Below, one piece after another: positions 4,808-50,133 of a stretch of DNA of 64,000 nucleotides; the first letter of the stretch is position 1, and each line of letters starts with the position of its first letter. The notes beneath the pieces were generated by a model, which was given only the letters and a program-made list of their open reading frames with translations, did not search any database and was not told the origin of the DNA. The translations under genes and the position numbers were made by a program. Source of the stretch: Diphasiastrum complanatum (lineage: Eukaryota > Streptophyta > Lycopodiopsida > Lycopodiales > Lycopodiaceae); the NCBI GenBank assembly GCA_029204225.1, contig MU831939.1:31708-95707 (forward strand). Direction: 5' to 3'.

Positions 4808-5357
4808 TTCAGCATCACAACTACAACAGCAACAGTATAGTCACTCATCATCCAAGACCAAGCTATTTTGCAGATATTGCAAAAGGACCAACCACAACAT
4901 CAAGGACTGTCGCATCCTCAAGCACAATGAAACAAATAAGAAGATGTAGCAGCACCAAGAAGGCAACTCTGACACAGTCAAAGGATCTCAAGATGAAGAG
5001 AAGGCGCTGATGGTACAAGATCAATCCAATAGAGATGCCCATCATTGGTATCTCGATTCAGGTGCTTCTCAGCACATGACATCATGCAAGGACCTCTTCT
5101 CTACACTCACAGCTACAAAATCAAAGTACATTTTCTTTGGTGACTCCAGTTCACACCAAGTTGAAGGCCAAGGGTCTATTCAACTACAGTTCTCTAATGG
5201 CATCACTAGGCAGCTTAATGGAGTACTTAATGTACCCAAATTAACAAAGAACCTTTTATCTATTAGCAAGATCACAGATCAGGACTATAGAGCTTTGTTC
5301 ATTGCCAACCGTTGTACTATTTTAGATGAGAACTCAAAGGAAATCCTCTCTTCTTAA
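4808..5357 (+). pseudogene. Copia 1 gag C-terminus and protease
   Basis: One frame runs from 4808 to 5357 with a single stop. It encodes the gag zinc knuckle FCRYCKRTNHNIKDC (C-x2-C-x4-H-x4-C) at about 4863-4910 and the aspartic-protease signature WYLDSGASQHMT at about 5047-5082. The N-terminal two thirds of gag are absent. The protease active-site triad D-S-G is intact. Confidence 0.85.
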
Positions 5358-5368
5358 AGAGAAAGAAA

Positions 5369-6027: not shown

Positions 6028-6041
6028 GCTACGATCTACGA

Positions 6042-8984: not shown

Positions 8985-10310
8985 GCTGGCATTTTTCTCT
9001 CAAGGACTCGAGTAACTCATTACGAATCTGAATAAAACTCAACTCGTTTATCAGAGGCATTTTGCTAAGGGCATCTGCTACTGTATTGAATTTTCCACGT
9101 CTATATCTGAAAGACATGTCAAACTCTTGCATCAACTCTGTCCAACGAGCTTTTCGACCTCTAAGCTCAGGTTGATTGCAAAGGTATCTGAGACTCTCAT
9201 GGTCTGTCAAGACCTCAAAGTTGGCACCATACAAATAATGCCTCCAAGTCTTAAGGACATGGACTATAGAAAAGAGTTCCTTTTCATAGGCATTGTAACT
9301 AGTCTGAGCTGGCTTGAGTTTTTTACTCTCGAACGCAACTGGTCGTCCAACCTGAGTTAGCATAGCACCAACTGCAAAGTCGCTAGCATTTGTTTCGACC
9401 ACAAATGACTGATTGGGGTCGACGACTTTTAGAACTGGTGTTGTAGCTAAGGCTGTTTTGAGAGCATCAAAGCTCTCCTACTGTGCGGACTCCCAAATGA
9501 ACTCCTTTCTCTTCCCCTTAAAAAGATTTGTCATGGGAACTGCTATCTGAGCATATTCCTTGAGAAATCGTCTGTAATATCCTGCCAAACCAAGAAAGAT
9601 CTGAAGTTCCAAAATTTTCTGAGGTCTCAGCCAACTGAGTATGGCTTTAACCTTATTTGGGTCCATCTTAATCCCATCTGAAGAGATAATGTGACCCAAA
9701 TATGCTACTTCTTCAACGAAGAATTCACACTTGGATTGTTTAGCATAGAGCTTATGCTTTCTGAGTAGTCGAAACACCTTTCTGAGGTGTTTTAGATGCT
9801 CCTTCCTCGTTTTGATGTAGATGAGGATGTCATCTAAAAATACGACTACAAACTTACCCAAGTATGGTCTGAGGACACTGTTCATCAAGGTCATAAAGGT
9901 AGCTGGAGCATTTGTGAGCCCAAATGGCGTCACCTTAAACTCATAATGACCATGACGAGTCCTAAAAGTTTTTTTTGAGACATCTTCCGATTTTATACGG
10001 ACTTGATGATATCCCGATCTGAGGTCTATTTTGCTGAAAAACTTAGCCTCGTCGAGTTGGTCAAACAACTTGTCTGTCCGAGGCATAGGGTATTTATTCT
10101 TAATTGTGACTTTATTGAGGGCTCTGTAATCTACGCAAAGATGCATAGACCCCTCTTTCTTTTTCACCAATAGGACTGGTGAGGCCCATGGTGAACTACT
10201 GGTCTGAATTTGGCCTTTCCCAAGATAATCTGTTAATTGCCTAGTTATTTCTTCATCCTCTGTTCGGCTGACCCGATACGGAGGTTAAAAAATAGGTGCT
10301 GTACCTGGTA
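8839..10310 (-). pseudogene. Gypsy B reverse transcriptase and RNase H
   Basis: The RT open segment is 9478-10170, starting inside the LLVKKKEGS motif. It has [26 protein letters not shown] and the catalytic box FLDDILIY, all well preserved. After a stop at 9478-9480 the RNase H segment (8839-9402) has VGRPVAFESKKLKPAQ, YEKELFSIVHVLKTWRHYL and TDHESLRYL. The first RNase H catalytic Asp reads VETNAS instead of the usual TDAS, an inactivating change. Otherwise one of the best preserved retroelement genes here. Confidence 0.9.
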
Positions 10311-10670
10311 CTAGGTTTATTACATGATCTACCTCTCTGCTGGGTGGTAAACCATGTGGCAAATATTCAGGAAAAACATCTTTAAATTTAGACAATAAAG
10401 TTTCTAATTTACTGATTTTCTGTTGTATAGAATTGAAAATAGAAACTTCAGGAATAAACTGAAAGTCACATAAGAATACCTGATGGTCTTCGTCTTCGTT
10501 AGCTGATAGAGCTCTAAACTACAGACCATAAGACTGAACATCATGCTCCCAATGCAACTGGATCTCTCGCTCCCGAGAACAATATCTATACGATCCAGGT
10601 GCATTATCTGAAAGTTTATTTCATCTTGGTACCCCTGAATACCAAGATTCAAATTACTTACCGTAGTTTC

Positions 10671-11095
10671 TCATATTTTTTTATTTTCACTCTTAGCTAA
10701 TGAAACTATGTACCTATGCTGACTAGGTACTTCTGGTAGTTTAAGCTTTTTAACCAGGGTGTAGTTGATGGAATTATGGGTTGCCCCATCATCAACCATA
10801 ACTCTTACTGACTGGTTACCAACTTTCTCATGCATACGTACTAGGTCATGCGGCCCAAAGCTGAAGGGTCTCGCTAGCATTGCAGAGGTCAGATGGCAAC
10901 AATGTTCATGATCTTCATGATACACTTTGATCTCGGAAGCTGCCGAGTCACTGGGGAAACATACAGTCTGAACAAGATGAACTTGTTTCTTATCTTTCTT
11001 ATCTTTTTTAGTGAAAGGCCCCTTGGGACACTTTCTGACTGTGTGTCCCCTGCCCATACACACAAAGCACAAACGTTCTTGTTTGGCTTTCTCAA
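10671..11095 (-). pseudogene. Gypsy B gag zinc knuckle and aspartic protease
   Basis: Contains a CCHC knuckle CFVCMGRGHTVRKC at about 11030-11070 and a protease signature VMVDDGATHNSI at about 10780-10815, where the D-x-G-A pattern corresponds to the DGGATHNF form common in plant Gypsy. Between 10671 and the RT start at 10310 the frame is broken by stops. Confidence 0.85.
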
Positions 11096-11456
11096 AATGA
11101 TCTGGTTTTAAGGGTTGTATGAGTGAAGGGTATTTCTGAGGAGCTTCACTTTTAAATTTATCTTGATTCTTTCTTTCTAAAAATTTCTTTTTAAATTGAA
11201 AGTCTTTCTAAGAAGGCTGTTCAGAAAGTGGCTGTTGTCTCGCCCTCTTCCTACCCACTGAATCATCATAGATTTGAGCATATCCGAGAGCTTGCTCAAG
11301 GGTAGTAGGCGAATTTATCTGGACCTCTACTTTATATTCATCTTTGAGGCCACGGACAAATCCCCTGATTTTCTGATAATCATCCATATTTTTAATCTTT
11401 CAAATTGCTTCCCGATACTGCAAGATATAGAGGGACTTGTCCATTACTGTTCTTTC

Positions 11457-12096
11457 TCAGGCTTCCCAGGCTCTATCAAGCTCATTTTCTGGTAGAAATT
11501 CTCTTAGGAAAGCTTCTTCAAAGGCTTTCCATGACCGAGGAGCCTGCCCAATCTCCTGGAGATTTAACCACCACTTATAGGCCATAGGCCCTAAGGAAAG
11601 ACTGGCCTCAATAGCTTGCAAATGGTCAGGGGTCTGTTTGAGAGCATGAATGTTCTTCCATTTGCTAAGGAAGGTTTGTAGAATGTCTGCATTTCTATCC
11701 TTCTCTTCCCCATTAAAAGTAGGAGGCTTTAAATCTTTAAAAACACTGGGGTGAGACCGTAAAGTCTCACCCGAAATTGATGGAAGTGGAGAAGGGGATA
11801 ACTGAGAAGTGGAGGGAAGGCTTCCTTTCGCGGAACTCAAAATCAAAGCTTTTGAGTTCAGCGAACGAGTCGTCCACACTGGACTTGAAATTGGCTAATG
11901 CCAACTTCAGTTCATCCACTTCTGTTACCAACTAAAGAAACTGCTCCTTGGTAATCAGTTTGTCGAGTTCTTCAGCGAACCGTTCCTGTTCTTCCAATTT
12001 CATTGGTTCCTTCTCTTTTCTGTAAGCCAAGGCTTCTGTTTCAAGTTCGTCGAAGCCTCTCTCCGGGGGTTGATTAGGTCCTTGAAGAGTGGTCAT
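11457..12096 (-). pseudogene. Gypsy B gag (retrotrans_gag)
   Basis: The ATG at 12096 opens MTTLQGPNQPPERGF followed by a charged coiled-coil-like stretch. One stop and a frame change near 11880-11930 lead to the 140-residue frame 11457-11879. That frame carries the capsid-like region with TFNGEEKDRNADILQTFL and FEEAFLREFLP, typical of plant Gypsy gag. Confidence 0.8.
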
Positions 12097-18188: not shown

Positions 18189-18350
18189 GCTCCCTCTCAA
18201 AGCATGATAGCTTGATGACTCCAAGTCTGCTCCTCTGTTTCTCGAACAAGCCTTTATCTAAGGCTTTTGTGAAGATGTCAGCAACCATCTTCTTCGTTCC
18301 ATTGAAAATAGTCTACAACTTCTTCTTTTTGATCAGGTCCCTTAGATGCT
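18067..18350 (-). pseudogene. Copia 3 pol C-terminal tail
   Basis: The minus-strand frame 18067-18288 reads MVADIFTKALDKGLFEKQRSRLG, the conserved end of Copia pol just before the polypurine tract. About 20 codons upstream it fuses to GAG-pre-integrase, showing that integrase, RT and most of RNase H were removed in one deletion. The frame runs on into the LTR. Confidence 0.85.
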
Positions 18351-19097
18351 CACCCCTGTGATAGCTCCATGATGGCTTGCTTGATACAGTGCCATTGAAT
18401 TCATATGGCATAGGCTCTTGTGCCATAGAATATCTGACGTATCATGGGCTTGATGTGCTTGATCTGCAAGTAGGCATACCTTCAAGTGATACAGGTTGTC
18501 TTTTCTTCTACCTTGTGCAATCAATGTACTGGTGCTTGCATCAACAACATTGCATGCTTCGTCTGAGAACTTCACACTCGTCCCTGCATCAGCTATTCTT
18601 GCAACTGACAGCAAGTCCTGCTGCAATGTAGGCACGAACAAAACTTCTTTGAGTCGTCTGTCTCTACCGTTTGTGTTGAGCCATAATGAACCAATACCAT
18701 TCACTTGATGCTTTGATCCGTCTCCAAGAATGATAAATCTTGATGGATCTACACTTCGGAAGTCAGACATGATCCGTCTTGATGTAACGAAGTGTGAGGT
18801 GTCTCTTGAATCTAGAATCATCTCTTGTGTGTTACGTGTCGACACTGCACACACATCTACATAGATGTAGATGGTCGAATTTCCATGATTCGATCTTTCT
18901 TCGTCCATTTTCGAGCTTTCTGGCTCTTCGACGTAGGACGAACTATTGTTGTTTTCCCGTTTGCCTTGAGCTTGTTTGTTTCTTAGGTATTGGTAGTAGT
19001 CCATCACTGCATGACCCTTCTTATGACAATGGATGCACTCAATCTTCGGATTGAGCCAACACGAATCGACATTGTGTTCTTCGCGTTTGCATCTCAT
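18342..19097 (-). pseudogene. Copia 3 zinc knuckle, protease and GAG-pre-integrase
   Basis: 251-residue open frame: a degenerate knuckle C-IHCHKKGHAVMDYY (last Cys is Tyr), a protease site reading ILDSRDTSHFV where intact elements have LDSGATSHF (the essential Gly and next Ala replaced, so inactive), RFIILGDGSKHQVNGIGS, and DILWHKSLCHMN of the GAG-pre-integrase domain. It ends at the deletion junction near 18350. Confidence 0.88.
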
Positions 19098-19790
19098 GCA
19101 TATCTTCTTGTCGCCACTCTACTATTTTGGCTTTCTTTTGATCTTCCATTTGCCTCTGTTGGCTCCCTCTGCTTGCTGGTCTTGATCCTGCCTTTGGTCT
19201 GATTCCCTCTTAGGCCTGAACTGCTTCTTTGTCTTCTCCTTGTTACTGTATAGAGCTTGGTTAGAAGCATCTTTGCGATCAAGGTGCTCATGAGCTTCGA
19301 CTTGTTCTCGAATCTCAATCACTACCTTTTCAAGTGTCATAGCTGGATCCTTTGCTAGCAACGTTCGGCTTGTTTGGAAGGATCTTGGTAAATCTCTTAA
19401 CATATATGTGAGCTGCTTCTCTGCTGATACTACATTTTCTGCTTCAAAATTGTATAGTAAGAGGAACAGGTCCTTCATCTTTCTAATAAAGGAGGTGAGG
19501 TCTTTGCCATCCCATTGCAGGTTTGTCAACTGATCTTCGAGAAGCATGATCTGACTACATGATTTTGTTTGGAATCTTGTGAGTAAACATCTCTCTTGCA
19601 TTCGAGAGTACAACAAGGTCAAAAGTTAGGCTATCTTCGATGGATGATGACAACATGGATATTGCGTTGTTGTTCTTTTCTCTCCATTCGTGTAGCTCCT
19701 TGCCTATAGTTGTAGGCATCTCTTCAGTGCCGTCTACCCAGGAAAATAATCCTTCTCTCTTTAGTATGAGAGAGGTCTTAAAAGTTAAAG
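19098..19790 (-). pseudogene. Copia 3 gag
   Basis: Frames 19122-19622 and upstream to about 19790 give a Copia gag (UBN2-like): LILKREGLF, then IMLLEDQLTNLQWDGKDLTS and MLRDLPRSFQTSR. It is collinear with the Copia 2 gag (LLLKGEGLW, IMFLEDQLTYLQWEDKDLN). The N-terminus is truncated where it meets the Gypsy C tail. Confidence 0.85.
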
Positions 19791-23880: not shown

Positions 23881-24013
23881 TGTATAGGCTCAAAGCTGAT
23901 ACAATGATATTAGAATGAATCAGAGTCGATACAGTGGTATCTTCGCACCCCATTCAGCATTCTTCATACATCCATCAGCAAGCCACTATCTGGAGGTTAT
24001 TCAGAAATAGAAT

Positions 24014-24800
24014 TTGTCATCGATCATCAATATTCAAGCTAAGATCACTACGATCTTGGATCTAGAAAGTTCAAACTACTTGATTTGGAAATTAAAGACT
24101 TCACTCTTATTGAAAGGCGAAGGTCTTTGGCAATGGGTAGAACCAATAGAGGAGAAGCCAGTAGCTACTCTTGGCAAAGAACTTCGAGAATGGAGTTTAA
24201 AAAATGACAAAGCTATAGCAATTATTGTGTCTTCAGTGCATGACAATATAATGCTAGGTCTTATATCAATTTCGAACGCAAAAGATTTATGGGAAAAATT
24301 GCAAATCAAGAATGAGACTCGATCTCGTAATCAAATCATGTTTTTGGAAGACCAATTAACTTACCTACAGTGGGAGGACAAAGACTTGAACACATTCGAA
24401 AGATAAAAGACTGTTTGTTTCCTTGCAAAATTCTGGTGCAGAAAATACAATTTTTGAAAAATAGCTTAGTTATTTTCTTCGAGCCCTACCCAGGTCATTC
24501 TACACAACAAGAACCTTATTGGCAAAAGATGCGACAATGACACTTCAAAAGGCAATAGACGCAGCTAAAGAGGAAGTAGAAGCTCGTGAACACTATGACA
24601 ACAATGGTGATTCCGAAAATGCTCTATTTACTCAGAAGAATAAATCTTCTAAGAAGTCTAAGTTTAAGAGGGAGTCTTCTAAAAGGAATGAGTCTAAGAC
24701 ACATTAACAACAAACTGGAAAACAACAGAAAAATTTTGGTGAGAAGAAGATCTGCAACAGATGTAGAAGATCGAGTTACACAGAAGATAAGTGTTGGCTA
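24014..24800 (+). pseudogene. Copia 2 gag
   Basis: The frame 24014-24406 starts at a TTG where ATG is expected (likely a mutated start). It holds the UBN2-type gag core (YLIWKLKTSLLLKGEGLW, IMFLEDQLTYLQW). Stops and a frameshift lead to 24519-24707 (ATMTLQKAIDAAKEEVEAREH). The first knuckle, CNRCRRSSYTEDKC, lacks the usual His and lies near 24748-24790. Confidence 0.85.
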
Positions 24801-25115
24801 AATCTCATGATTGAATGCATTCATTGTCATAAACGAGATCATGCAGCAGTAGACTGTTATCAAAATTCCAGAAACAAGAAGGAGCATAATCGAAGCGAAC
24901 CTTCAGATTCAAACTATGTCGAAGACAAAGCAGAATGCTCTAGAGCAGCAGAAGACAAGACAACAAGGGACTCGGCAGCTTATGTTAGTGCTGATCTATG
25001 CTGTTCATCTAATTCAATTCAAGAAGTAGTACTTGATTCGGGAGCCACCTCACATTTGTTTTCTCAAAACAAATTTTGTCAGAGTACAAGAAGACGAACT
25101 ATTCGAGATTCATGA
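24801..25115 (+). pseudogene. Copia 2 second zinc knuckle and protease
   Basis: CIHCHKRDHAAVDC (C-x2-C-x4-H-x4-C) near 24814-24855 and the protease signature VVLDSGATSHLF near 25028-25063, intact. A frameshift near 25080 separates it from the next frame. Confidence 0.87.
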
Positions 25116-26216
25116 TACTTGGAGATGGTTCTAAGCACATGGTTGATGGAACTGGTGTATTATGGCTGGACACAAATCAAGGTGACAAGAAACTAGAGGA
25201 AGTTCTCTATGTCCGTACTCTTGACAAAGATCTTCTATCCGTAGCTAAGATAGTCGATACAGACATGTCAATAACCTTCACAAAACTATTCAAGGAAGAT
25301 TCTGATAACCTGGTTGCTAAAGGCAACAGAGAAAAAAATTTATATCACTTGAACATTCGAACTAGAATCAAACAAGCCAATCAAACTCAGGAATCAACAG
25401 ATATCATGTGGCACAAGAGGCTATGTCACATGAACATGGAAGCCTTGTACCAAGCCAACAAAATTCAGAGAATTCAAGGAGTCGAAATCAAAAGTAGAGA
25501 TATTCGAACTACCTGTGAATCCTGTCTTAAAGGCAAGATGACTAGAAGACCTTTCAGTAAGGATGTTTATAAAGCAACTAAGGTACTTGAAATTGTGCAT
25601 TCAGATATTTGTGGACCATTTGGAGTATTGTCGTTGGGTGATGCAAAGTACTTCATAACATTTATTGATGACTTCAGCAAGTTCGTTGTGATATACTCTA
25701 TATGTACTAAATCTAAAGCTTTTGAGAAATTCGTTGAGTATATGAATTGAGCTAGAAGTGGACAAGCAATATGTTGAAACAAATTCGCACAGATCGTGGA
25801 GGTGAGTGCATTTCCAACGAATTCAAAGCTTATTGTATTAATCGAGATATTATACATACAAAGACTGCATCATACACACCTCAGCACAATGGAATAGCTG
25901 AACGAAGGAATCGTACACTTATGGAAGCTGCAAGGTGTATGATGGCTCATGCGAAAGCACCAAAGTAGTTGTGGACAGAAGTAGTGGCTACACGAAATTA
26001 TCTTCAGAATCGTATTCTGAAATCTCGAATACCGGATAAAACTCCTCGTGAGATTTGGTGGAAGTCGAACCCAAATCTTGCACATGTTCGGACATTTGGA
26101 TGCTTAGTGTATATGCACATACTAGACAGGCTGAGAAAGAAACCCGATGAAAAGACAAAACAAGGTTTTCTAGTAGGATTCAAGTTACATTCGTCATATT
26201 ATCGTTCTATGTAGCC
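25076..26216 (+). pseudogene. Copia 2 GAG-pre-integrase and integrase
   Basis: 25076-25750 has FMILGDGSKHMVDGTGV, MWHKRLCHMNMEAL, ESCLKGKMTRRPF and the first catalytic Asp in HSDICGPFGV. The second Asp is in IRTDRGGEC (25781-25806) and the Glu in NGIAERRNRTLME (about 25890). 25969-26214 has NPNLAHVRTFGCLVYMH. All three DDE residues survive, but stops at 25748 and 25966 break the frame. Confidence 0.88.
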
Positions 26217-26648
26217 GAAACTGGCAAGATAAAAGTTGTTCGAGATGTCAAATTTGATGAGTCGAAATACATAGTAGAAAGTGATCAAGTCGGCTATGAA
26301 ACTCTCAAAAACTATTATGAGCTACCAACGACGACAAAAGTAAAACAAGCAGAAGATGAAAGAGAATTACCAGATTCAGAGGGAGGTCAAGATCGAGTAT
26401 CTGATAGACTCGAATCACTAGCTCGAACTCCAACAGAAAAGGTCGAATCAGAATTGAGCCCAAAACCTGCAGAATCGAACTCGAAACCACCTGTGAGAAG
26501 ATCTGACAGACAACGTAAACCACCAGAAAGGTATGGTCAGGATGTTTTTAATACAGCATCAAATTTTGTGGTTTCTCTGACGAACCTCAAACATACAAGG
26601 AAGTTGTTGATGGACCAGATAAAGATCACTGGATTCAAGCAATGAAGG
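26217..26648 (+). pseudogene. Copia 2 integrase-RT linker
   Basis: Continues the integrase C-terminus (VRDVKFDESKYIVES in another frame) and then a low-complexity Ser/Pro/Glu-rich spacer ending VRRSDRQRKPPERYG (about 26486-26530), the usual SxRxRxPPxRY marker before Copia RT. Confidence 0.75.
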
Positions 26649-27494
26649 ATGAAAGGTTCATTCATGTATAAGAACAATGTATGGACATTTGCACCAATCC
26701 CTGATAGCAGAAAACCAGTCAAGTGCAAGTTGATCTACAAGATCAAAACAAATCCTGATGGAGGAAACATCAGATACAAGGCAAGGTTAGTTGCTAAAGG
26801 ATTTTCACAGAAGTATGGGATCAACTACACTGATACTTTCTCACTGGTAGTCAAACATACATCAATTCGCTTGTTATTCGCGTATGCAGTGGCTCATGAT
26901 CTGAAAATCCATATTGTGGATGAGAAGGCTGCTTTCTTGCATGCAGAATTGGAAGAAGACTTATTCATAGACCAACCACTTGGTTTTGTAAGCCAAGAAT
27001 ATCTAGAATACGGATGTCACATGAATAAAAGCATTTATGATCTGAAACAAATAGCCAGACAATGGTATAGAAAGAAGGATGAAGCATTATGTTCCTTAGG
27101 CTTCAAACCTCTATTTGTTGAGTCAAATGTCTATATCAAGCATGTCCAAAATGAAATAATCATTCTAGCTGTCTATGTTGATGACACACTTATCTTCTTA
27201 AGAAGAGATAAGTTAATTTCAGATGTCAAAAGAGACATTTCTGAAATATTTGAGATCGTTGACCTAGGAGAAGCTAAAATCTATCTAGGCTTGCAAATCG
27301 TGAGAGACTTTGAAGGTGGTAAGTTGTATCTTCACAAACAAAAGTACACTCAAAAGATCATTGAAGACTTTAACATGCTCGAATGCAAAGGTGTGCATAC
27401 TCCCATGATACTTGGAACAATACTGAGCAAGGCAGACTGTCCGCAGACTCTCGAGGAAGAGGAACGATGGCCAAAACACCTTATCGTAGGATGA
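26649..27494 (+). pseudogene. Copia 2 reverse transcriptase
   Basis: 281-residue open frame: YKARLVAKGFSQKYGINYTD, DEKAAFLHAELEEDLFIDQP (first catalytic Asp kept), YDLKQIARQWYRKKD, and the catalytic box AVYVDDTLIF near 27170-27200, then LGLQIVRD. The RT is the longest intact domain of this element; it ends prematurely at 27492. Confidence 0.92.
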
Positions 27495-28147
27495 TTGGTT
27501 CATTGTTATATCTAGCAGACAACACCAGACCTGATATAGCATTTCCAGTATACAAGCTGAGCCAATATAGGATCGTTGCATTGGAAGTTAGCAAAGAGAG
27601 TAATACAATACCTCCAGGAAATAAAAGACTATGGACTGTGTTATTCGAAGGAAGCTGGATTTCACATTGAATCTTATAGTGACGCAAGCTGGGCATCCAT
27701 GAAGGATGATAGCAAAAGTATTTCAGGAGGTTGTACTCTAGCATTGACGCAACCATACTCTGGATAAGCAAGAAGCAAACAATAGAAGCTCAATATTCTT
27801 GTGAAGAGAAATATGTAGCAGCAGCCAAGATGGCAAACGAACTGATTTGGATTAAATAGATGTTGGAAGGATTCGATGAATCTAATTTTGAACCTTATGT
27901 CTTGTTAATGGATAACACTTCAGCAATCTATCTTACGAAAGATCCTGTATTTCACTAAAAAACGAAGCACATAGCTATCAAATATCATGTGATTCGGGAC
28001 TTAGTCGAGAAGAAGATATTGAAGAAAGTCTTCATACCCACAAAAGAAATGACAACTGATATCTTTACGAAGCCACTCAGTAAAGCTTTGTTCGAGAAGC
28101 AGCCAAGAAGATTGGGGTTAATGCAACTGCCCACTTTGAGAGGGAGT
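27383..28147 (+). pseudogene. Copia 2 RNase H and polypurine tract
   Basis: 27383-27670 carries RMIGSLLYLADNTRPDIAF. Then, with stops and frame changes, ESYSDASWASMKDDSKSISG, the VAAAKMANELIW region, LVEKKILKKVFIPTKEMTTD and IFTKPLSKALFEKQPRRLG. TTTGAGAGGGAGT at 28135-28147 is the polypurine tract; the 3' LTR follows. Confidence 0.85.
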
Positions 28148-29022
28148 TGTAGAACACTTGATCAGACAAATATTGATTCTACTAACAAAGAGCGCAGTTT
28201 ACTTGACAAAGGACGAGGAAGAAACGAATGTGAACTTGAAACATTTCTATTTGTGACCAACTCGAAAGATTTGCGAAATTTGTCTTGCAGTCAACTCGAA
28301 AGATTCGTGAAAGAGTATCTTGTAGAAGCTCGTGGCTTTCTTGTAGAAGCTCTAAAGATTCGTGAATAGAATCTTGTCGTAGAATATTTTGTTTCTTGTT
28401 CAACCTCCGACGTTGCAAAATTGTCGCAAACAATTCGCAAAATATTCTGAATTTTTTTTTCAAGCTCAAAGTTATCTGTCATGAACAATTCGCGAAAGAC
28501 GAAAATGTTGGGAAGAGACAAGTGTCGTAAACAATTCGCGAAACACGAAGTTGAGACAAAAAGATGGACTATCGCAAATAATTCGCGAACAGAATTTATT
28601 CGACCCTGAAAACAGAGCGTCTATTGAATATCAACTATTAGTAAACAATTAGATATCTACTGTTACAACATTAAAAGAAAAAAAAACATGTCCTGTAGCA
28701 ATATAAATACATGTGCACTACTCGTAACTCACTCACTCAATCAGAGACACAACAACGAGATAAGTAAGCAAGAGATGTATATTGATGATTCAGATTCAGA
28801 GCTATAAAATTTAATTTTGATCAATAGTTTCTTATTGTCTAAAATTGTCTTAAGTTGTCTCTTGATTCTGCATATAATTCCGCATGCATATTCAATCAGA
28901 AATAAATTTTGTTCTATTAGTACATAGATTAGATACAATCCGATTGAAGACACTGATATTAGTCTGATTTATTCAAGCTTTCACTATGTTCTCTATGGAA
29001 GAATAATTACTATTTTTTCTAC
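28148..29022 (+). repeat. Copia 2 3' LTR (about 875 bp)
   Basis: Starts TGTAGAACAC after the polypurine tract and is collinear with 22966-23868. It ends ...TTTTTTCTAC before the TATGA target duplication. Confidence 0.9.
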
Positions 29023-39000: not shown

Positions 39001-39384
39001 CCTCACTGGGAACCCCCACAGGAAACCGCAAGGAGATTTCTCGTGGTTTCTTGTGGTGGGCTAGACCATAAGGAGCCTTCCATCCCCCACCACAAGAAAG
39101 CTCCTTGGGGTCCCTCACAGTTTAGGGTTTAGGGTTTAGGGTACCCAACCCAACAGAGCCCACCCCAAGAGACCACAAGGAGCCTTCTTGCGGTCCAGAC
39201 CACCGCAAAGGGACTGCAAGAAGGCTCCTTGTGGTCCCTCACAGTTTAGAGTTCAGAATACACAACCCAATGGACCATAAGGAGCCCATCCCAAGGGACC
39301 ACAAGGAGTTTTCTTGGGGTCCAGACCACCGCAAGGGACTACAAGAAGGCTCCTTGCGTCCCTTGCAGTGACCCAAGGGACCGC
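39001..39384. repeat. palindromic satellite block left of Copia 4
   Basis: Dense repeats of GGACCACAAGGAGCC and its complement (GGCTCCTTGTGGTCC). Two head-to-tail units of about 125 bp are clear (39101-39224 and 39225-39349), each starting CTCCTTG and containing CCTCACAGTTTAG. The same words recur at 43329-43470 on the other side of Copia 4. Confidence 0.8.
39121..39141 (+). repeat. three TTTAGGG telomere-type units
   Basis: Three exact copies of the plant telomere heptamer inside satellite unit 1; unit 2 has a degenerate version (TTTAGAGTTCAGA). Too short to indicate a real telomere. Confidence 0.9.
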
Positions 39385-39814
39385 ATGTAAGATCTTTGAA
39401 TTCGTAGCTTTCAGAAATCTGACTCTTCGCATTTTTTATTAGCATTAAGGAATTTCCTATCATCAGGGAATCATCCACAAAGATAGTCAGTATCACAAAA
39501 TCTTTTCCTACTCTTTTAATGTAGACATTGCAGTCTGGTTGAGTGGGATTGAACTCTAGAGACTTCATAAGACCATCAAGCTTCTTGTACCAAACTCGTG
39601 ATGCCTATTTTAGACCATAGATGCATCTCTACAACCGACAGACATATTGTCGATTGTTGGGGTCTTCAAAACCTTCAGGCTGCTTCATGAAGATTCTATC
39701 CTCTAGATCTCTATGGAGAAAGGCTGTTTTCACGTCAATTTGGTGAATTTCCATATTGTACTGTGTGGCGTATGCAAGAAGTAGCCTTATGCTTGTCATC
39801 TTGACCATGGGCAA
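39385..39814 (-). pseudogene. Copia 4 reverse transcriptase, truncated
   Basis: FPMVKMTSIRLLLAYATQYN, QIDVKTAFLHRDLEDRIFM, then a stop, then SLEFNPTQPDCNVYI and the catalytic box TIFVDDSLMIG (near 39480; the usual YVDD has become FVDD). It ends YEFKDLT and is replaced by satellite sequence. Confidence 0.88.
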
Positions 39815-39830
39815 ATATGTGTCGAAATAA

Positions 39831-40497
39831 TCAACACCATATCTCTACGTGTAGCCCTTCGCAACAAGCCTTGCCTTGTAGTAGCCAATGGTGCCATCTG
39901 ATTTCATCTCTTTCTTGTACACCCACTTGCAGTCGACTATTTTTCTGTTTTCTGGCAGTGGCTCTAATGTCCATGCCTCGATTCGATAATTGCCTACTTC
40001 CAGAATTCTCCCTCTGGACTCTGGATATCGTCTTGGTATGTTGTTGGCTCTTCAGTGAAGCTGCAGTACTCGAACTGTGTATCTTTGCTCCACTGAAGAT
40101 TGTCAGAGTAATGGTCTGGAGGTCTTCTTTGTCTTGTTGACCTTCTAGGTTCGTTTCGTCGCTGTTCAAACGTTTCTTGTTCATGGTGTTGATCCTCTGC
40201 TTCCTGCTGCTCTGGAGTCTGTGGCTCTGCATTATGATTTGATGTATGTCCTCAATCTCCCTCTTGAATGGGTAGCAGTGTGAAGATCTCATGGCCTCTT
40301 TTGTCTTTCAGTCCAGAAAATGTGGACTCATCGAACTTCACATCTCTATTCGAAACAGCCTTCTTCGTGGTTGCGTTGTAGAGTCTGTACACATGTGTTC
40401 CGTTCGAGTAGCTGACCATGATTGTTTGCTCAGATTTGTCATCAAGCTTGCTTCTTATTTCTTTTGGAATGTGCTTGTATGTTGCACATCCAAACAC
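39831..40497 (-). pseudogene. Copia 4 integrase C-terminus and linker
   Basis: 40252-40497 reads MFGCATYKHIPKEIRSKLD ... YSNGTHVYRLYN ... RDVKFDES, the conserved Copia integrase tail. Further left, frames are shifted through the variable linker to about 39831. Confidence 0.8.
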
Positions 40498-41048
40498 TCG
40501 TACTTATGACAGATCTTTCTGCCTGTCCACATTTTGTATGGTGTTTTGTTTTTCAGCACTGTAGTTGTAGATCTGTTCTGTAGGTGTACATCTACAGCTA
40601 TTGCCTCAACCCATAATTGACCTGGCAATTGAGCCTGTGCCATCATGCATTTGGCTCCTTCGACTAGCGTTCTGTTTCTTCTTTCTGCAACACCATTGTA
40701 TTCTGGTGTGTATGCAGGAGTGAACTAGTGTTCTATCCCCTGTTCTTTGTAGAATCTTGAGAATTCTTTGCTTTTGTATTCACCTCTGTTGTCAGATCTA
40801 AGGATCTGTATCCTTTTCGAGGTGTGTCGCTTTGCAAATGCTACGAACTTCTTGAAGGAATCAAACACTTCAGATTTCTTCTTTAAGTAGTAGATCATGG
40901 TCATCCGGCTGTAATCATCTATGAACGTCAGAAAGTATCTTGAACCTGAGAGTGAATCCATCTTCATCGGTTCACAAACATTAGAGTGGACGAGCTCAAG
41001 AACTTCCTTGGCTCTTCTTCCCTCATGCGTGACTGATAGGCTTCGCAA
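40455..41048 (-). pseudogene. Copia 4 integrase core
   Basis: YFLTFIDDYSRMTMIYYLK, QILRSDNRGEYKSKEF (second Asp) and, after a stop at 40725, NGVAERRNRTLVE (Glu). The first catalytic Asp is lost: the block reads HSNVCEP where functional copies have HSDxCGP. Confidence 0.88.
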
Positions 41049-41600
41049 AACTCAGTTTCGGGCTTTAAAATCTTGAGACCTGTGACTATGTCTTTTCTGC
41101 TCATGTCATACAGGCTCTGCATGTTCAGGTGATACATTCTGCTATGCCAGATCTGATCTTCATTTTTTGAAGCATTTAATATGCTATCAGAGTTGCTGAT
41201 TATTTTGGCTTGGTAGAGGTTTCCTTCTCTGCATCCGACCGTTAGCAACTTGTTTGTCGTCTTCTCAATCATGCGACATGTGTTGACGTCAAACAAAACT
41301 TGAATTCCAAGATCTGTCATCTTGGAGACGGATAACAGATCTTTTCTGAGTGAGGGCACATAGAGTGCTCCTGGTAGCTCTGCTTGGCCTGACAGTGTTC
41401 GTAGCTGTAGAGTGCCAGTGCCTTTGACATCGTGTTTGCTCCCATCACCTAGAATCACTGCTCTATTGTTTTTGAGCTCTCTGAAGTTGATCAAGATCTT
41501 CTTGTTGCAGGTGATTTATGATGTTGCCCCTGAATCAATGACTACATCGTAGTCGTATTCAATGTAGCTCGTGGAAGCTTCATCAAGTATCGTGAGAGCT
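40964..41600 (-). pseudogene. Copia 4 protease and GAG-pre-integrase
   Basis: The protease site VVIDSGATS is at about 41525-41550, followed by a stop. Then AVILGDGSKHDVKGTGTL, GALYVPSLRKDLLSVSKM and IWHSRMYHLNMQSL of GAG-pre-integrase in the 176-residue frame 40964-41494. Confidence 0.88.
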
Positions 41601-44409: not shown

Positions 44410-45284
44410 GGTCAAGAGGAAGATCAAGAGGTTGATAAAGGGCTTTAACCACACAAAAGGGAACGTGGCAATTTGGAGCTAGTCAAGAGCATCAAAGGGA
44501 AGTCAAGTGGCAAAGATACTTTGGATCTATTTTTGCAGGTTATTGAAGACTCAAGTAAGGTCAAAGGAGAAGCAAGGAAGTGTTGTTCAAGTTTACTTTA
44601 CTTGTTCTATCTCATGTTTGACAATTTCATGTGAATGTGTGCAAATTGTCAAGATATGGTGAAACTAGCTACATTGTTTTGCATCATTTTGATGTTGGAG
44701 CTGTACTAGCATTATTGGCTGGTTTTGCTGATGGAAATGAAGCTAATGGAGGCTCATTATATCACTCATTCATGGTCAAGTCATCAAGGGTTGATAATAT
44801 CTTATGGCAAGATGGAGATGGAGGCTCCGCCAGCCACCTGAACATGCCATCGTTACTTCGAATGACATTATCAGTGGCAAATTAGATGAAGTTTCATTTA
44901 AGCTAGATGCTACTACCAAACATCAGAGCTCAAATGGATTTTCATGGTGGAGACATTAAGAAAGGACAAAGATGGAGGAGACATGCAAGCATTGGTTGAT
45001 TACTCACATTTATTGCTTGGTTGTTGTTATTTTCTAGAGATTTCAAAGTTGAAAGCATGGAGGAATCATTGCATTTACATTCTATTTGGTTCTTCATGTT
45101 CTAGTTACATCTAGATATGTAAAATTGATGTAAGAAATAGTGAGGCGTGGAGAAGATTCTCTATATCAATTATGAAAGTTACTATAAAACCATAGAAAGG
45201 ATGTCTACACTTAGGATGAGATAATTTTTAAGATGGATCAAAGTAGTGTGGTTAAATCTATGTTAAATCTAGTTGAAGGGGGAG
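44410..45284 (+). repeat. dispersed non-coding repeat, copy 2, ending in a polypurine tract
   Basis: Collinear with 30800-31300, with additional sequence. Ends GTTGAAGGGGGAG (45272-45284), a typical polypurine tract, directly followed by TGTGAAAGATTG, an LTR-like start. Together this suggests the 3' part of a non-coding LTR-retroelement derivative. Confidence 0.6.
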
Positions 45285-45688
45285 TGTGAAAGATTGTCAA
45301 CTAGTTTGTTGGTTATTTGGCATTTTTGGAGGCCAACATGAAATCTCAAGTTAGAGATAGGTTCATATTTAACAATAAAGGACTAAATAGTATTTTTACT
45401 ATTTTTGGCAAGTAGATAAATGCATGAGGTCGAGTTCGGACCCATTCTAATTGCTTGGCAATCTGCTGTTTAGCACTTATCTATTTTCTCTCTCCATGTA
45501 TGAACTTGCACACTTTTCTAAACTTGCTGTATTTTGTGGATTTTGTTATTTGTCGAATATGAACTCTACAATAGAACCACTGAGAAATAATTGACAAATA
45601 TAGTTTCGTTTTTCATTGGTTCCTCCATTTTGTAATGAAATGTTGCCCGTGCTTGCCAATGTGACTTCTCCATCCAAGCATAGGCGGA
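45285..45688 (+). repeat. putative LTR of the dispersed repeat
   Basis: Begins TG after the polypurine tract. No second copy here allows its end to be fixed; the boundary near 45688 is where the transposase-like frame begins. Confidence 0.4.
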
Positions 45689-46141
45689 GCAAAAGCACAT
45701 CGATTCTTGTCAAACCACACTGGTAAGGCTACTAATATTCAACACTCAGTCTGGACATATATTGTTGCTGCCACTCAGGACTTTGAGGTGAGCGACAAAA
45801 CTAGATTACTAAAAGTTGATGTATGGAGGAAGCTTGACAGTATGATTAAAATTTTAAGAAAAGATAAATTTTCTGATATTGATAAGAAAGCTCTACAAAA
45901 GACTTGTGTCGAGTTTGTTGATGTAGTATCAAAAGCATGGGGAGAAGATCACATCACTCATTACATGGTTAGTATAAATGCTTCGAGTTGCTTTTAATTT
46001 TCCCTATATCTTTTGATCCAAGCATAAGACTGACATTACGATTTTGACATTATATGGAAGCCTGAGTGTCTGGTCATCATCCATCTAATGTAGCATCCAA
46101 CTAAGTATGATGCTAATGCAATCACCAATCATAGTGTTGTC
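45689..46141 (+). pseudogene. transposase-like family, copy 1 (partial)
   Basis: The frame from about 45689 to 45967 encodes a segment that aligns with copy 2 (48720-48960) along its length: DVWRKLDSMIKIL against QVWRNFNKLIGVI, and AWGEDHITHYM against GWGEDHVTHYM. A donor ATG|GTTAGTA at 45967/45968 sits at exactly the same codon as the intron of copy 2, and about 46046-46090 resumes with LYGSLSVWSS, matching YGSLSI-stop-SS in copy 2. Sequence upstream (the C-x2-C region of copy 2) is missing. I do not know the family by name. The shared intron, shared protein similarity and repeated occurrence argue for a mobile or multigene family. Confidence 0.6.
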
Positions 46142-46401
46142 CACTTTCATTGCTATATATTTGTTGTTTTACACTCTCACCACATTTGAGCTTAAGTAAA
46201 AGTATTAGAAATTCGACTATGATCTATGGAAGCTCTAAATGCAGTAATGTACAAGTAATTAGATTTGATGTAATGGTAGTGGTTGGGACATGTGACTTAG
46301 ACTAAACATCAAATCCCTATTGCAATCACCTAGTGTTGAAAATAAAAAAGCCATCTATCTTGACTTTTAAGGTTTGATGAAATATCCATCATGCATGTAG
46401 T

Positions 46402-47036
46402 TGTAGAACCTGAAAAGGCCAAAAATGGCTTGGTAGGAACTCGAGCCAATCCACATGCATTAAGCCAAGTTTGCCAAATATGACATGCAAAGCAAACTCA
46501 AACTTGTATTGGGGCACATGCATGAACATTTGTACATATGTATTCTAGAACATGACACATGTAGGAAAAATATAGATGAAGTTGCATTTCTCAACATGCA
46601 AAGTTGTAGGTGTCAAATTTTTGGTAGAAACTACTCTTAGAAGTGGACCAATGAGATTCAAGGCTTGATCTACCTCGAGCTAGTACCATTCACTATATAT
46701 GTAAGTGATTGCTCTCACTATTTTGTTGATGAATCAAGCATTGAAGCCATTCTCTATTCATTTTGGATTTTTGCCTTGTAAGCCTGAATTGTCCATTCTC
46801 TCTCTATTCGAGGAGAAGGCTTTGCTCATACATTAATTTTCTTGGTACTTTCCCCACATGTGTGAAAATAATCAATTATTGATTTTTAGCATGTTAGATT
46901 GTGATTTAGCCATAGAATCTAGATATAGATCTTGTTTCTCAAGCTACAATTGATCTATGTGCAGACACAAAGCTTAGGAAGATCATTCACACTTTGAAAG
47001 TACATCCCACACATGTGAACTTCTTGGAATTTCACA
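46402..47036 (+). repeat. Copia 5 5' LTR (about 635 bp)
   Basis: Runs from TGTAGAACC to ...GGAATTTCACA and is directly followed by a good primer-binding site. TG...CA bounded. The start is chosen by motif only. Confidence 0.6.
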
Positions 47037-47048
47037 TGGTATCAGAGT
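47037..47048 (+). other. Copia 5 primer-binding site
   Basis: TGGTATCAGAGT, 11 of 12 bases identical to the initiator-Met-tRNA complement, immediately after an LTR-like CA end. Confidence 0.8.
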
Positions 47049-47799
47049 CAAACTAAGCTTACCATGCTATAACCATTTCATGTATGAGAAATTTCAAATT
47101 CTATTCAAGTACGAAAGCAGCTTTTTCACAATTTTCTATCATTTCTTGAGAAGTTTGTGGATCAAAGAGACCAAAATAGAAGTTTTCAGATTTGAACAGG
47201 TACTGTAAGGATTTCTAAGATTTCACACGTGTGAAAATCAGCCCACTTCATTCCTATTGTTCTCTTTGATGCTTAATCTAAAGATAGTGACTAGATAGCT
47301 TGTTCGAAAGCTAGAAAAGTCTAGTTTCCATTGCAATTTGTTTCAAATTAATTTGATAAGCCAATCAAAAGTAACAAGCTTTTGATGAAGTGTAGGTAGG
47401 GCTCCTAGACCTGTGTGGACACTTTTTGATTTGATCAAAAATTGCTTGTTTGATCCAAAAACCCATATCTATGCATACCAATTTAGACAAACTTGAGATC
47501 TAGACATTGTTTTGAGTTGTTTGACACATTGTTTCATACAAAGCCATTGTATTTGAGTCAATTGTGGTTTCTTTGAGCATCCCACATATGCCAAAGAATG
47601 TTTATGCCAAAACTTGTCTAAACTCCATTGCAAAGTGAGAGGTTGATCTAGTTTGAAAAACATTGGTAGAAATTTTGAGATCTATCTCAAATTTTGTTGC
47701 AAGATCTTGCATAGGAATTGGTAGTACACACTTTGTGAGTCCTACAGTGAGGGAGAAGCAACATATTTTTTTGTACATTACAAGGATTTTCACACATTA

Positions 47800-48187
47800 A
47801 TGGCCTCCATGGGATCCTACCTCTTAGAAGCTAGTGAAAGACTGAACACCTCCAATTACTCTATTTGGAAGGTTAAAATGGAGTCAATCCTAATACTCCA
47901 AGATGTTATGGACAAAGATCTTAGAATTGAGGAGGAGCCTCAAATACAACAAGAAGTGCAAAAATATAAGAAGAGATCTAGGATGGCCCTTCATTTTATC
48001 ATAATGAATGTCTCTAATGAGATCTTAAGAGAAATTGGCACTTGCACCTCTTCCAAGGAAGCTTGGCATGCACTCAAAGCTATCTATGAGGCCAAGAAGT
48101 GATGAGAGTGCTTTTACTTATGTATTGAGAATCAAAAATCTTCATAGAGAGCTTACTTGTGTTGGAGTCTCAATCAACCAAAGGAGC
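47800..48187 (+). pseudogene. Copia 5 gag N-terminal half
   Basis: ATG at 47800: MASMGSYLLEASERLNTSNY, then YSIWKVKMESIL and SSKEAWHALKAIYE, the UBN2-type gag start. A frameshift near 48100 leads to ESAFTYVLRIKNLHRELTCV, after which a deletion at about 48187 joins it to integrase. Confidence 0.85.
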
Positions 48188-48480
48188 TCAAGTCATCCTG
48201 GGGAGAAGCTATAAATTTTGCAAACTACTTGTGCAATGGATTACCTCACATTTCTCTTGGAGGAAAATCACCATATGAAGTCTTATTCAACAATAAGCCT
48301 AAGGTTGATCACCTTAGAGTTTTTGGAAGTACTTGCTTTGCTCATATTCCCATGGAAACAAGGAGGAAAGATGATCCAAGTTCACTCAAAGGGATCATGG
48401 TTGGGTATTCATCCAACAAGAAGGCATATAGAATCTTTATTCCCTCTACCTCAAAGACAATTTTGAGTAGAGATAAACAT
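48188..48480 (+). pseudogene. Copia 5 integrase C-terminal part
   Basis: EAINFANYLCNGLPHISLGG, SPYEVLFNNKPKVDHLRVFG and MVGYSSNKKAYRIF are the post-core part of Copia integrase. Gag end, protease, GAG-pre-integrase and the integrase core are deleted. Its frame continues without a stop into the transposase-like sequence. Confidence 0.85.
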
Positions 48481-48515
48481 GACCATATAATACTTTCATG
48501 GATATTTTCACGAAC

Positions 48516-49190
48516 AAATTATGACAAGATTATAAAGAGACATTTGGAGGGTGAAAAACTTATAGTCAAAAATCATGGAAGTTTCCAAATTCAATGGCAC
48601 CTTGCAGGCGATTTGAAAACATTGAAATGTATGTATAATGTCTCTCATGGGTCAACATCAAAGCATCCATGTCTTTATTGTATGAAGGATTGCTACAATT
48701 GAAATTGGGGACGACCAAACACTGGCCCAACATGTGTCAGATATGCAATTTGGAAAGAAATTGTTTTAGCCGCACGAGTAATCGAAGAAAATTGTAAAAT
48801 GGACAAGGCACAAGTGTGGAGAAACTTCAACAAACTCATAGGTGTTATCATGAAGGAAACCCTATTATCAGAAGATATGAGTACTCTACAAAATCATTGC
48901 TCCACATTTGTAAAATCTATACGAGATGGTTGGGGAGAAGATCATGTTACACATTATATGGTACTGTTCTATTTCATTATATGGTACTTATATCATTCAT
49001 GGTTATATTTATATGTACTGATATTACTTTTTTCAACTATTGTTTGCAGCACGTCTTTCTTCATCATGCAACTTATTTTGCAAAAGAATATGGGAGCTTA
49101 AGTATCTAGTCATCACAAGGCATGGCAAAATCAAATTGGCAAGCAAGAAGCGCATTTCATAGAGCTACAAATCATGGTGGACATAATTAA
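48516..49190 (+). pseudogene. transposase-like family, copy 2, with an 89-bp intron
   Basis: Exon 1 (about 48516-48960) encodes IQWHLAGDLKTLKCMY, SKHPCLYCMKDCYN (Cys-x2-Cys), a stop at 48702, then NWGRPNTG, IWKEIVLAARVIEENCKMD, QVWRNFNKLIGVIM and GWGEDHVTHYM. The intron 48961-49049 starts GTACTG and ends TTTGCAG. Splicing restores the frame as HYM|HVFLHHATYFAKEYGSLSI, then a stop where copy 1 has Trp, then SSQGMAKSNWQARSAF and TNHGG. The Cys pair, conserved His/Trp and repeated occurrence suggest a DNA-transposon-type or otherwise selfish gene. Exon 1 is fused in frame to a Copia integrase remnant upstream (continuous frame 48157-48702). The family is not one I can name. Confidence 0.6.
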
Positions 49191-49341
49191 AAAATAAATA
49201 TCTAGTAGAATTATTCTAGTTGTTTTACAGACGAAGACAAATATCAAGCTAAGAACTCGCCAAAAATGTTATCATCTTTCATAAAGCGTTCAAATTCATC
49301 AGAAAAGAGAGATCTTCTTGATACAAAGGAAAACATGTATG

Positions 49342-49515
<174 letters not shown>

Positions 49516-49589
49516 GATCCATGTTGGGTTCTGTCAAGGATAGAAATTCAAAACTAACCTCTAGCATGTCTAATACAATCATAAATGTT

Positions 49590-49706
49590 TCCCAAACCCC
49601 CCATCGGGGGGCAACCGCCCCCCGGACCCCCTATTTCTTGGGGGGCTACGGCCCCCCGAACCCCCCGTTTCTCGGGGGGCTACCGCCCCCTGAACCCCCT
49701 GAGCAT
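49590..49706. repeat. GC-rich hairpin minisatellite with G/C runs
   Basis: About three units of 35-40 bp, each GGGGGGCTACGGCCCCCC or a variant (a hairpin with GGGGGG/CCCCCC stem) followed by GAACCCCC and TTTCT. Multiple runs of five or six G on each strand could also form quadruplexes. Confidence 0.85.
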
Positions 49707-49887
49707 TTATTGAAAACCAGAGCAAATAACAACCAAATAGCTATTGAAAATAAGATCTGTTTGTGACCCATCTACTGCACTTCTGAGAGGCAAAACACTC
49801 GTTTGACCATTGATCCCCTAAAAAAATTTCAGCCATAAGCTATTTTTCCCAAAAAAAAAAACAAATAATTTTTTTTTTTTGCGATTT

Positions 49888-49940
49888 TGGGAGGAGAAAC
49901 GCGTTTCTCAGAAACGTGGTTTCCGAAACGTCTCCTCCCA
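49888..49940. repeat. inverted repeat with GAAACG motifs
   Basis: TGGGAGGAGA (49888-49897) pairs with TCTCCTCCCA (49931-49940). The loop contains the palindrome GAAACGCGTTTC and further GAAACG copies. Confidence 0.85.
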
Positions 49941-49969
49941 GAAACGCGATTCTATGCAACTATGGTAGG

Positions 49970-50133
<164 letters not shown>

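Follow-up and report, generated by a model that had tools for sequence, protein, structure and literature searches.

The window, a 64,000-nucleotide stretch of Diphasiastrum complanatum DNA, contains two plus-strand segments that encode a common protein pattern, here termed copy 1 and copy 2. Both had been reported in the initial annotation, and their coordinates and pattern are correct by sequence and translations. Copy 2, a member of subfamily A, extends from 48475 to about 49314-49336 and is interrupted by one TGA and one TAG. The start of its exon 2 (48475..48732, plus strand) encodes the putative second catalytic Asp (LAGDLK) and the C(2)C motif (HPCLYC); this block contains the TGA and retains 88-91% nucleotide identity with genomic elements. 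At a deletion junction (48731..48736, plus strand), the LH-motif segment of about 110 residues is gone: copy 2 matches residues 209-295 and 406-480 of a composite of genomic copies, and the two flanking blocks are about 325 nt apart in genomic elements. The end of exon 2, VRYAIW...WGEDHVTHYM (48736..48960, plus strand), is 65% identical in amino acids to the genomic composite and is followed by a phase-0 intron of 89 bp with 25% GC (48961..49049, plus strand, GT...TTTGCAG; sequence and translations). As proposed initially, excision of this intron restores the frame, joining WGEDHVTHYM to HVFLHHATYFAKEYGSLSI*SSQGMAKSN, and sequence comparison reveals the same exon boundary in genomic copies. 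Exon 3 (49050..49187, plus strand) carries H(4)H (HVFLHH), the TAG and an exchange of Glu for Ala at the putative catalytic Glu (GMAKSN), a position occupied by Glu in 18 of 20 genomic loci. More 3′ element sequence reaches to a TG/TA microsatellite (49188..49325, plus strand), as determined by blastn of element loci, whose matches to copy 2 end between 49231 and 49336. On its upstream side, copy 2 is abutted by a decayed Copia retrotransposon relic that lies outside the transposon (47812..48474, plus strand; Pfam Retrotran_gag_2 4.5e-12, SH3_retrovirus 1.7e-24).

Copy 1 is nearest to subfamily B and preserves the end of exon 2, PSIGGAKAHRFLSN...WGEDHITHYM (45674..45967, plus strand), its coding similarity beginning at 45674 when measured against full genomic copies. 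Spliced copy 2 detects it by tblastn with 61.2 bits (E 7.5e-14; best score in 20 triplet-shuffled windows, 25.4 bits), and it is 48% identical to the composite of genomic copies over 98 columns (tblastn). The GT donor claimed for the codon of the copy 2 intron is indeed there, as WGEDHITHYM ends at 45967 and is followed by GTTAGT. From this donor at the conserved intron position up to 46052 (45968..46052, plus strand), an acceptor and the first 13 codons of exon 3 are not recognisable in sequence or translations. The exon 3 piece YGSLSVWSS (46053..46079, plus strand) scores 47, and a displaced, inverted piece with the putative catalytic Glu, MEKSHWQARATFH (45635..45673, minus strand), scores 54, against a maximum of 37 when 122 further 500-bp segments from the window were scored. 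In the tblastn search of the whole window, the MEKSHWQARATFH piece by itself only equals the best shuffle (25.4 bits), and the argument is therefore carried by its adjacency to copy 1. Copy 1 is rearranged, with part of the missing exon inverted alongside and the Glu retained there. A one-step inversion was rejected: the upstream part that it predicts is absent right of 46080, and hence the rearrangement was more complex. The Cys-x2-Cys pair, which the initial annotation ascribed to the family, is present in copy 2 and absent from copy 1.

The two copies resemble different subfamilies and are therefore not a recent duplication; their dN/dS is 0.28 at a dS of 1.67, which is near saturation (NG86). 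Both are dead internal remnants and represent two different subfamilies within a single transposase family. In the same genome (1.74 Gb), scoring of 150 candidates out of 13,897 yielded 251 transposase exon matches, and 1,439 left and 1,105 right element ends were found, including some assembly duplicates, compared with 0 for reversed-pattern controls. Paired ends are 2-12 kb apart and display imperfect terminal inverted repeats (TIRs) of about 35 bp that begin with CATTAGGG (CATTAGGGGAAATATGGGCTCAAAATGGGCCC versus CATTAGGGGATATTAGAACTCAAAATGGGCCC), the element termini being 5′-CA...TG-3′. The 3′ end was defined from three loci other than the fetched copies, and in the latter an inverted copy of the 5′ TIR was not found downstream of the transposase. 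None of 8 independent end pairs is flanked by a target-site duplication (TSD) of at least 2 bp; empty sites were recovered for 5 of the 8, and all 15 sequences are continuous and seamless. The window itself contains no element end at up to 7 mismatches in 32. In subfamily A, one element of 11.3 kb is delimited exactly at either end (C2:66524905-66536223); it comprises TIRs and transposase exons, followed further downstream by a histone H3-like gene on the same strand. The H3 ORF of this element is open over the compared stretch; its transposase exons contain stops and a frameshift, and for this reason we dropped it as an intact element. The hundreds of exon matches genome-wide and the ends with TIRs confirm the mobile, intron-bearing multicopy family that had been suspected from the window. 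The family is an abundant plant cut-and-paste DNA transposon with TIRs, and the empty sites demonstrate the absence of a TSD. Since it is abundant and matched by no Pfam model, plant repeat annotation may overlook it.

The residues highlighted by the initial annotation, C-x2-C and His, recur together with D, D, E and LH across 20 genomic loci (gaps set aside; 18 independent, as L032/L050 and L036/L037 share flanks). The acidic residues are conserved in 16 of 16 (D1), 19 of 20 (D2) and 18 of 20 (E) cases, the Cys residues of C(2)C in 20/20 and 19/20, both residues of LH in 20/20, and the His residues of H(4)H in 15/16 and 16/18. Judging from the motif spacing, with 20 residues each between D2 and C and between H and E, the two Asp residues and the Glu are putatively catalytic; the motif arrangement is that of CMC/Transib/RAG1 transposases. 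The transposase most likely cuts at the TIRs and joins the element into target DNA without target duplication, presumably by blunt joining.

Searches against Pfam, NCBIfam and PDB families gave no transposase match, in line with the earlier failure to name one; the Pfam and PDB profile searches yielded weak matches to unrelated families only, and window and genome sequences matched neither Pfam RAG1 nor Transib/RAG1 in the PDB. Plant EnSpm/CACTA elements differ in that the termini here are not CACTA, a 3-bp TSD is lacking and no match was obtained to the Pfam CACTA transposase domain. Relatives were also absent from viral contigs, from a prokaryote genome collection and from phages and plasmids (tblastn). 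A pattern match in viral contig L001 was discarded, as none of its open frames renders the motif within a similar protein. As described for the CMCT clade, which unites EnSpm/CACTA, Mirage, Chapaev, Transib, Plavaka, ESTA, Lanisha and RAG1, members carry C(2)C and H(3-4)H in the interval from the second D to the E and have 5′-CA...TG-3′ termini and a TSD of 2-5 bp (PMC12730594). The family here shares C(2)C and H(4)H at this location as well as the termini, but is without a TSD and has no sequence match to members in the libraries searched. Chapaev, a CMC superfamily described in animals, has the motifs C(2)C, LH and H(4)H and, in one family, a transposase in two exons (PMC4079192); these features recur here, whereas the termini (CATTAGGG instead of 5′-CAC...GTG-3′), the lack of a 3-4 bp TSD and the plant host differ. 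With plant EnSpm/CACTA the family has in common the host, a multi-exon transposase gene and an exon boundary near the catalytic E (PMC4158355).

It is possible, albeit less likely, that the transposase stands outside CMC/Transib descent, either as a separate DDE superfamily or with C(2)C and H(4)H arisen or kept independently, and with its own zero-TSD insertion. The missing duplication, compared with 2-5 bp for CMCT (PMC12730594), and the lack of a Pfam or PDB transposase match point in this direction, as does hhalign, which gave no alignment support with a 41-residue HzTransib piece. However, D, D, C(2)C, LH, H(4)H and E follow in CMC/Chapaev order with the 20-residue spacings and the 5′-CA...TG-3′ termini, and hhalign aligned the transposase with an animal-like peptide of approximate sequence at E 2.2e-8, a peptide that itself matches Pfam RAG1 at E 0.0025. 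The CMC/RAG1-type motif set combined with TSD-free insertion bears on how this DDE branch joins DNA.

Downstream of the transposase, the larger elements contain a histone H3-like ORF, which was found in at least 150 places (150 of 150 scored candidates). It lies outside the window, in which no H3-like match below E 0.01 occurs, and so was not visible to the initial annotation. The protein matches Pfam Histone (E 2.9e-18), and its best PDB sequence is a histone H3 (E 2.8e-20). Its identity to plant H3 is 34-39% (39% over 134 columns with an approximate plant H3 sequence), and despite this far divergence it is still a histone by profile. A comparison of CENH3 and H3 kinship gave no clear preference either way. 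The tail of the protein is rich in Pro, and its C terminus is extended. All 18 copies read retain K4 and have lost K9, and in 12 of 13 the first 40 residues contain no Lys besides K4; most of K14-K36 is replaced by the Pro-rich stretch, and the canonical K9, K14, K27, K36 tail was not encountered. Within 10 kb of the transposase, the ORF occurs 13 times downstream on the same strand, once on the opposite strand and never upstream, with 0.06 expected; the order left end to transposase (5/0), left end to H3 (6/0) and H3 to right arm (8/0) is uniform, a few places in these counts being assembly duplicates.

Across 17 copies, the dN/dS of the H3 ORF is 0.41 and lowest in the N tail (0.29). The first 12, picked mostly for lack of stops, gave 0.37, and the 5 with stops gave 0.52; L056 and L057 are near-identical to each other. 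These values bear a signature of selection on the ORF. The protein keeps a histone fold and K4 and might enter nucleosomes; lacking K9 and most of K14-K36, it is presumably unable to carry silencing marks, and nucleosomes containing it could not receive the K9/K27 methylation with which plants repress transposons. This loss of marking would help the element to escape silencing, and we infer that the protein may act as an anti-silencing histone. Our specific proposal, that a plant transposon family encodes its own H3 variant, markable at K4 and devoid of K9/K27, so that its nucleosomes evade silencing marks, is put forward tentatively.

A competing and similarly tentative explanation is that the element acquired the ORF in a single capture and carries it along by transduplication as an inert passenger that does nothing for it. 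Of the 150 H3-like matches listed, 101 contain a stop; the ORF was seen in just 4 of the 20 loci fetched, and its median dN/dS (0.44, 17 copies) is not much lower than the value for the decaying transposase exon (0.55). These findings would fit, as would the fungal hAT elements, which took up histone H3 and multiplied it mostly in broken form (PMC6710886). Against this stand a dN/dS that is below 1 and reaches its minimum in the unusual N tail, the retention of K4 and loss of K9 in every one of the 18 copies, and a histone profile at 34-39% identity to plant H3. Somewhat less plausible still is a role in transposition itself, in packaging or targeting, instead of anti-silencing: the location of the ORF behind the transposase on the same strand, the Pro-rich tail and the C-terminal extension agree with it, and nothing specific opposes it, but K4 kept with K9 lost suits anti-silencing at least equally. 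That the two window pieces belong to a host multigene family instead of being transposon relics, as the conserved intron position and purifying selection between copy 1 and copy 2 might suggest, was rejected with near certainty on copy number and empty sites, the hundreds of dispersed matches, the defined ends with unrelated flanks and these sites having already refuted it for the family. Consistently, the family proved high-copy in the genome, and no strong host-domain match was found for the transposase. Taken as a whole, we regard it as likely that the locus holds dead fragments of a cut-and-paste family with a CMC-type transposase and an H3-like cargo, whose cutting chemistry, nucleosome entry and anti-silencing action are predicted.

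Transposon capture of host genes is already known, and so is H3 capture, from fungal hAT elements. These are known from Pyrenophora tritici-repentis, in which the captured H3 copies are putatively functional, and from Pseudocercospora fijiensis, in which they are mostly truncated and RIP-broken (PMC6710886). The common feature is a DNA transposon that carries and amplifies a histone H3-like ORF; here, in contrast, the H3 is far diverged with a rebuilt tail and a dN/dS below 1, and resides in another transposon type in a plant. Our literature search for transposon-encoded histones found this fungal case and no plant case. VANC of Arabidopsis VANDAL transposons counters epigenetic silencing and binds specific DNA repeats (PMC10398659). 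The likeness is confined to the proposed role of a transposon-encoded protein against epigenetic silencing; VANC is not a histone. If the anti-silencing proposal is true, a re-engineered H3 without silencing lysines, kept by a transposon, would represent a direct countermeasure in the arms race over chromatin, dodging H3K9 methylation by supplying another histone, a claim that is testable. A comparison of 128 other H3-like places with 140 subfamily-B transposase places gave no linkage within 25 kb. The genome also harbours other H3-like repeat families, about 45-55% identical to plant H3; should these be alike, transposons in this genome would have resorted repeatedly to encoding histones of their own.

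The two related segments that the initial annotation described in the window are borne out by sequence and translation, and belong to a multicopy DNA transposon family with terminal inverted repeats (TIRs), whose larger elements also carry a histone H3-like ORF downstream of the transposase. With the window placed at G000:C421:31708-95707 of the 1.745-Gb genome, we obtained 251 exon-level genomic matches to the protein of copy 2 (48475 to ~49325; 150 of 13,897 candidate places scored), so that the family indeed extends beyond the window, and 140 with a subfamily-B query (140 of 13,203 scored), counts that include assembly duplicates such as window 47017-50052, which is 99.2% identical to the first 3,018 bases of locus L002 (C22:31845532-31849002) and therefore stands twice in the assembly. 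The subfamily-B query also revealed an additional group at ~70% identity. Twenty loci of ~9 kb were fetched, of which 18 are independent (L032/L050 and L036/L037 share flanks); all have a colinear core in common and each matches most others.

The transposase exons of these loci are alignable over the putative catalytic residues and the motifs of CMC/RAG1-type transposases. The DDE residues sought in genomic copies were found, gaps set aside, as D1 (KLDESE) in 16/16 loci, D2 (AGDLK) in 19/20 and E (GMEKSHW) in 18/20. On the same basis, C(2)C (CLYC) retains its first Cys in 20/20 and its second in 19/20, LH (CTLHA) keeps both residues in 20/20, and H(4)H (HILLHH), directly 3' of the intron, has its first His in 15/16 and its second in 16/18. 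Spacings are 20 residues for D2-C, 20 for H-E, 252 for D2-E and 74 for D1-D2, the last across an exon junction with putative ends. The CMCT clade is marked by a C(2)C and an H(3-4)H motif lying between D2 and E (PMC12730594), and Chapaev by C(2)C together with LH and H(4)H (PMC4079192); the transposase here displays both sets. In 20,000 shuffles of a sequence combining both window copies, a broad motif pattern occurred in 0.6% and a tight one in 0.05%, the pattern having been picked after the sequence had been seen. The family assignment found no supporting sequence match in Pfam, NCBIfam or PDB, consistent with the earlier statement that no known plant transposase could be matched. HzTransib (6pqn) has H-x4-H and E..N in the corresponding region, but hhalign against this 41-residue piece gave no match. 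An approximate animal-like peptide matched the transposase in hhalign (E 2.2e-8) and Pfam RAG1 (E 0.0025), a lead and not a test.

The right arms of L038 and L050 encode a histone H3-like protein, which is also present in L035 and partially in L043 (4/20 fetched loci); several of the remaining 16 stop short of this position or have already given way to other sequence. The L043 right arm also holds, 3' of its H3-like sequence, an unnamed ORF (PSPAALAFVNTPQYVQYDQLLNTYLKGLGP...) with no Pfam match. The H3-like protein matches Pfam Histone (E 2.9e-18), and histone H3 is the best of 173 distinct PDB sequences matched (E 2.8e-20). All 150 genomic places scored (of 7,772 candidates) reached E ≤5.9e-66, separate from the canonical H3 genes of the host, of which there are 13 (97-99%). 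Linkage was counted on 133 transposase, 150 H3, 100 left-end and 40 right-arm places from the listings, omitting second-exon rows of the same transposase copy. Within 10 kb and with both genes on one strand, H3 followed the transposase 13 times, these including at least one pair that is an assembly duplicate; an opposite-strand arrangement was seen once, and H3 never lay upstream (expected 0.06). Order counts were 5/0 for left end to transposase, 6/0 for left end to H3, 8/0 for H3 to right arm and 3/0 for transposase to right arm. In the element at C2:66524905-66536223, both the H3 gene and transposase exons lie between exact ends. D2, C(2)C, H(4)H and E persist in its transposase exons 2 and 3, which nevertheless contain stops and a frameshift; its H3 ORF (L059) is open across the 132 residues compared, and the matches listed for this element include 15 empty sites at 95%.

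The dN/dS of the H3 ORF was 0.37 in 12 copies picked chiefly for open frames (two, L056 and L057, nearly identical), 0.52 in five stop-carrying copies and 0.41 in all 17 (tail 0.29, fold 0.47). The median was 0.44 in the 17 copies, compared with 0.55 for transposase exon 2 (170 pairs, 19 loci), and 49 of the 150 listed H3 matches are stop-free. Judged from these ratios and stop counts, the H3 ORF therefore seems to have been constrained during element activity, and many copies are now dead. Residue 4 is Lys in 18/18 copies read at the start, residue 9 is Gly in 17/18 and Val in one, a Pro-rich stretch (PPPRPPPPPPRPRG) takes the place of K14-K36, and 12/13 copies have no Lys but K4 among the first 40 residues. 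H3K9me2 coupled to DNA methylation, together with H3K27me1, silences plant transposons. Possessing K4 but neither K9 nor K27, the H3-like protein could not bear H3K9me2 or H3K27me1, and we propose that it may have an anti-silencing role. Precedents are the VANC proteins, anti-silencing factors encoded by transposons (PMC10398659), and H3 captured by fungal hAT elements (PMC6710886); among the papers listed by full-text searches of open-licence literature, none showed a plant transposon that carries a histone gene.

Other H3-like sequences occur in the genome. A second multicopy family (beta; L066-L071, for example C19:11025416 and C10:2473120) lacks the ARTKQTAR tail, and its six members read share ~45-47% identity with plant H3; the matches listed include well over 100 H3-like places at roughly 44-57%. 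A third protein, gamma (L073, G000:C8:18046600-18047080; MDRKKQTRRDFF...), shows 55% identity with plant H3 across the histone fold.

The initial annotation had called for element ends and target duplications; both ends could be defined, and no duplications were detected. Comparison of loci gave the left end, CATTAGGG(A/G)AAATATGGGCTCAAAATGGGCCC, and L052, L053 and L054 the right end, ...GGGCCCATTTTGAGTTCTAATATCCCCTAATG; in L055 divergence sets in before it. Allowing ≤3 mismatches, the genome contains 755+684 left and 560+545 right ends, with 0 for reversed-pattern controls. Choosing by eye among the exact ends listed, 100 for each side, we obtained nine same-strand pairs 2.0-11.9 kb apart, eight of them independent since two are mutual duplicates. 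None of the eight has a target duplication of ≥2 bp, and 1 bp is shared at two, the chance expectation. For five of the eight, the joined flanks match unbroken sites elsewhere, and for the other three none was among the matches listed (40 of 7,547 candidates scored). All 15 unbroken sites inspected are continuous across the junction, without gain or loss of a base (in one, the adjoining base is mismatched); therefore, insertion makes no target duplication. The transposase would join the element bluntly to its target.

In the window itself, the spliced copy 2 query recovered copy 1 (45674-46079) at 61.2 bits (E 7.5e-14), the maximum in 20 triplet-shuffled windows being 25.4. The predicted copy 2 intron at 48961-49049 holds (89 bp, 25% GC, phase 0), as does the GT donor that copy 1 has at this codon. 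The copy 2 5' splice site lies within a tandem duplication of 23 bp (units 78% alike; window 48952-48997), giving two candidate donors. A piece of the exon absent from copy 1 lies inverted at 45673-45635 (score 54; MEKSHWQARATFH, corresponding to MAKSNWQARSAFH in copy 2) and YGSLSVWSS of copy 1 at 46053-46079 (score 47), with none of 122 other 500-bp segments above 37. Because the inverted piece equals but does not exceed the best shuffle in a whole-window search (25.4 bits), the case for it depends on position. Differences between the copies by codon position are 39/28/54 over 99 codons, a protein-like change (dN 0.46, dS 1.67). Compared with the genomic loci, copy 2 has no LH segment, carries TGA and TAG, and has A replacing E; copy 1 begins at PSIGGAKA and, judged by eye, is closest to the second element in L047. 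The 11-bp sequence ATCCAAGCATA occurs as a direct repeat at 45672-45682 and 46016-46026, with no third copy in the window; the two units flank a portion of copy 1 and may be a mark of its rearrangement.

Elsewhere in the window, an AP2/ERF gene at 331-1176 on the minus strand (Pfam AP2, 3.1e-14), with a DLNLPY sequence that we take to be an EAR-type motif, is probably a host gene. Together with the abundance of Copia and the H3 sequence, this gene suggests that the host is a plant. Both L042 and L046 contain, beyond their transposon portion, a dispersed repeat that also stands at 44671-45307 (81-89% identity), and three 34-bp GC-rich tandem units at 49606-49707 adjoin long TG/TA microsatellites. 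Pieces of Copia and Gypsy type retrotransposons occupy 4950-6575, 8107-11894, 18342-19625, 24011-28369 and 39239-41515, on the basis of Pfam Pol_BBD, RVT_1 and RVT_2 for five stretches and of ORF reading for the remainder; Copia sequences are abundant.
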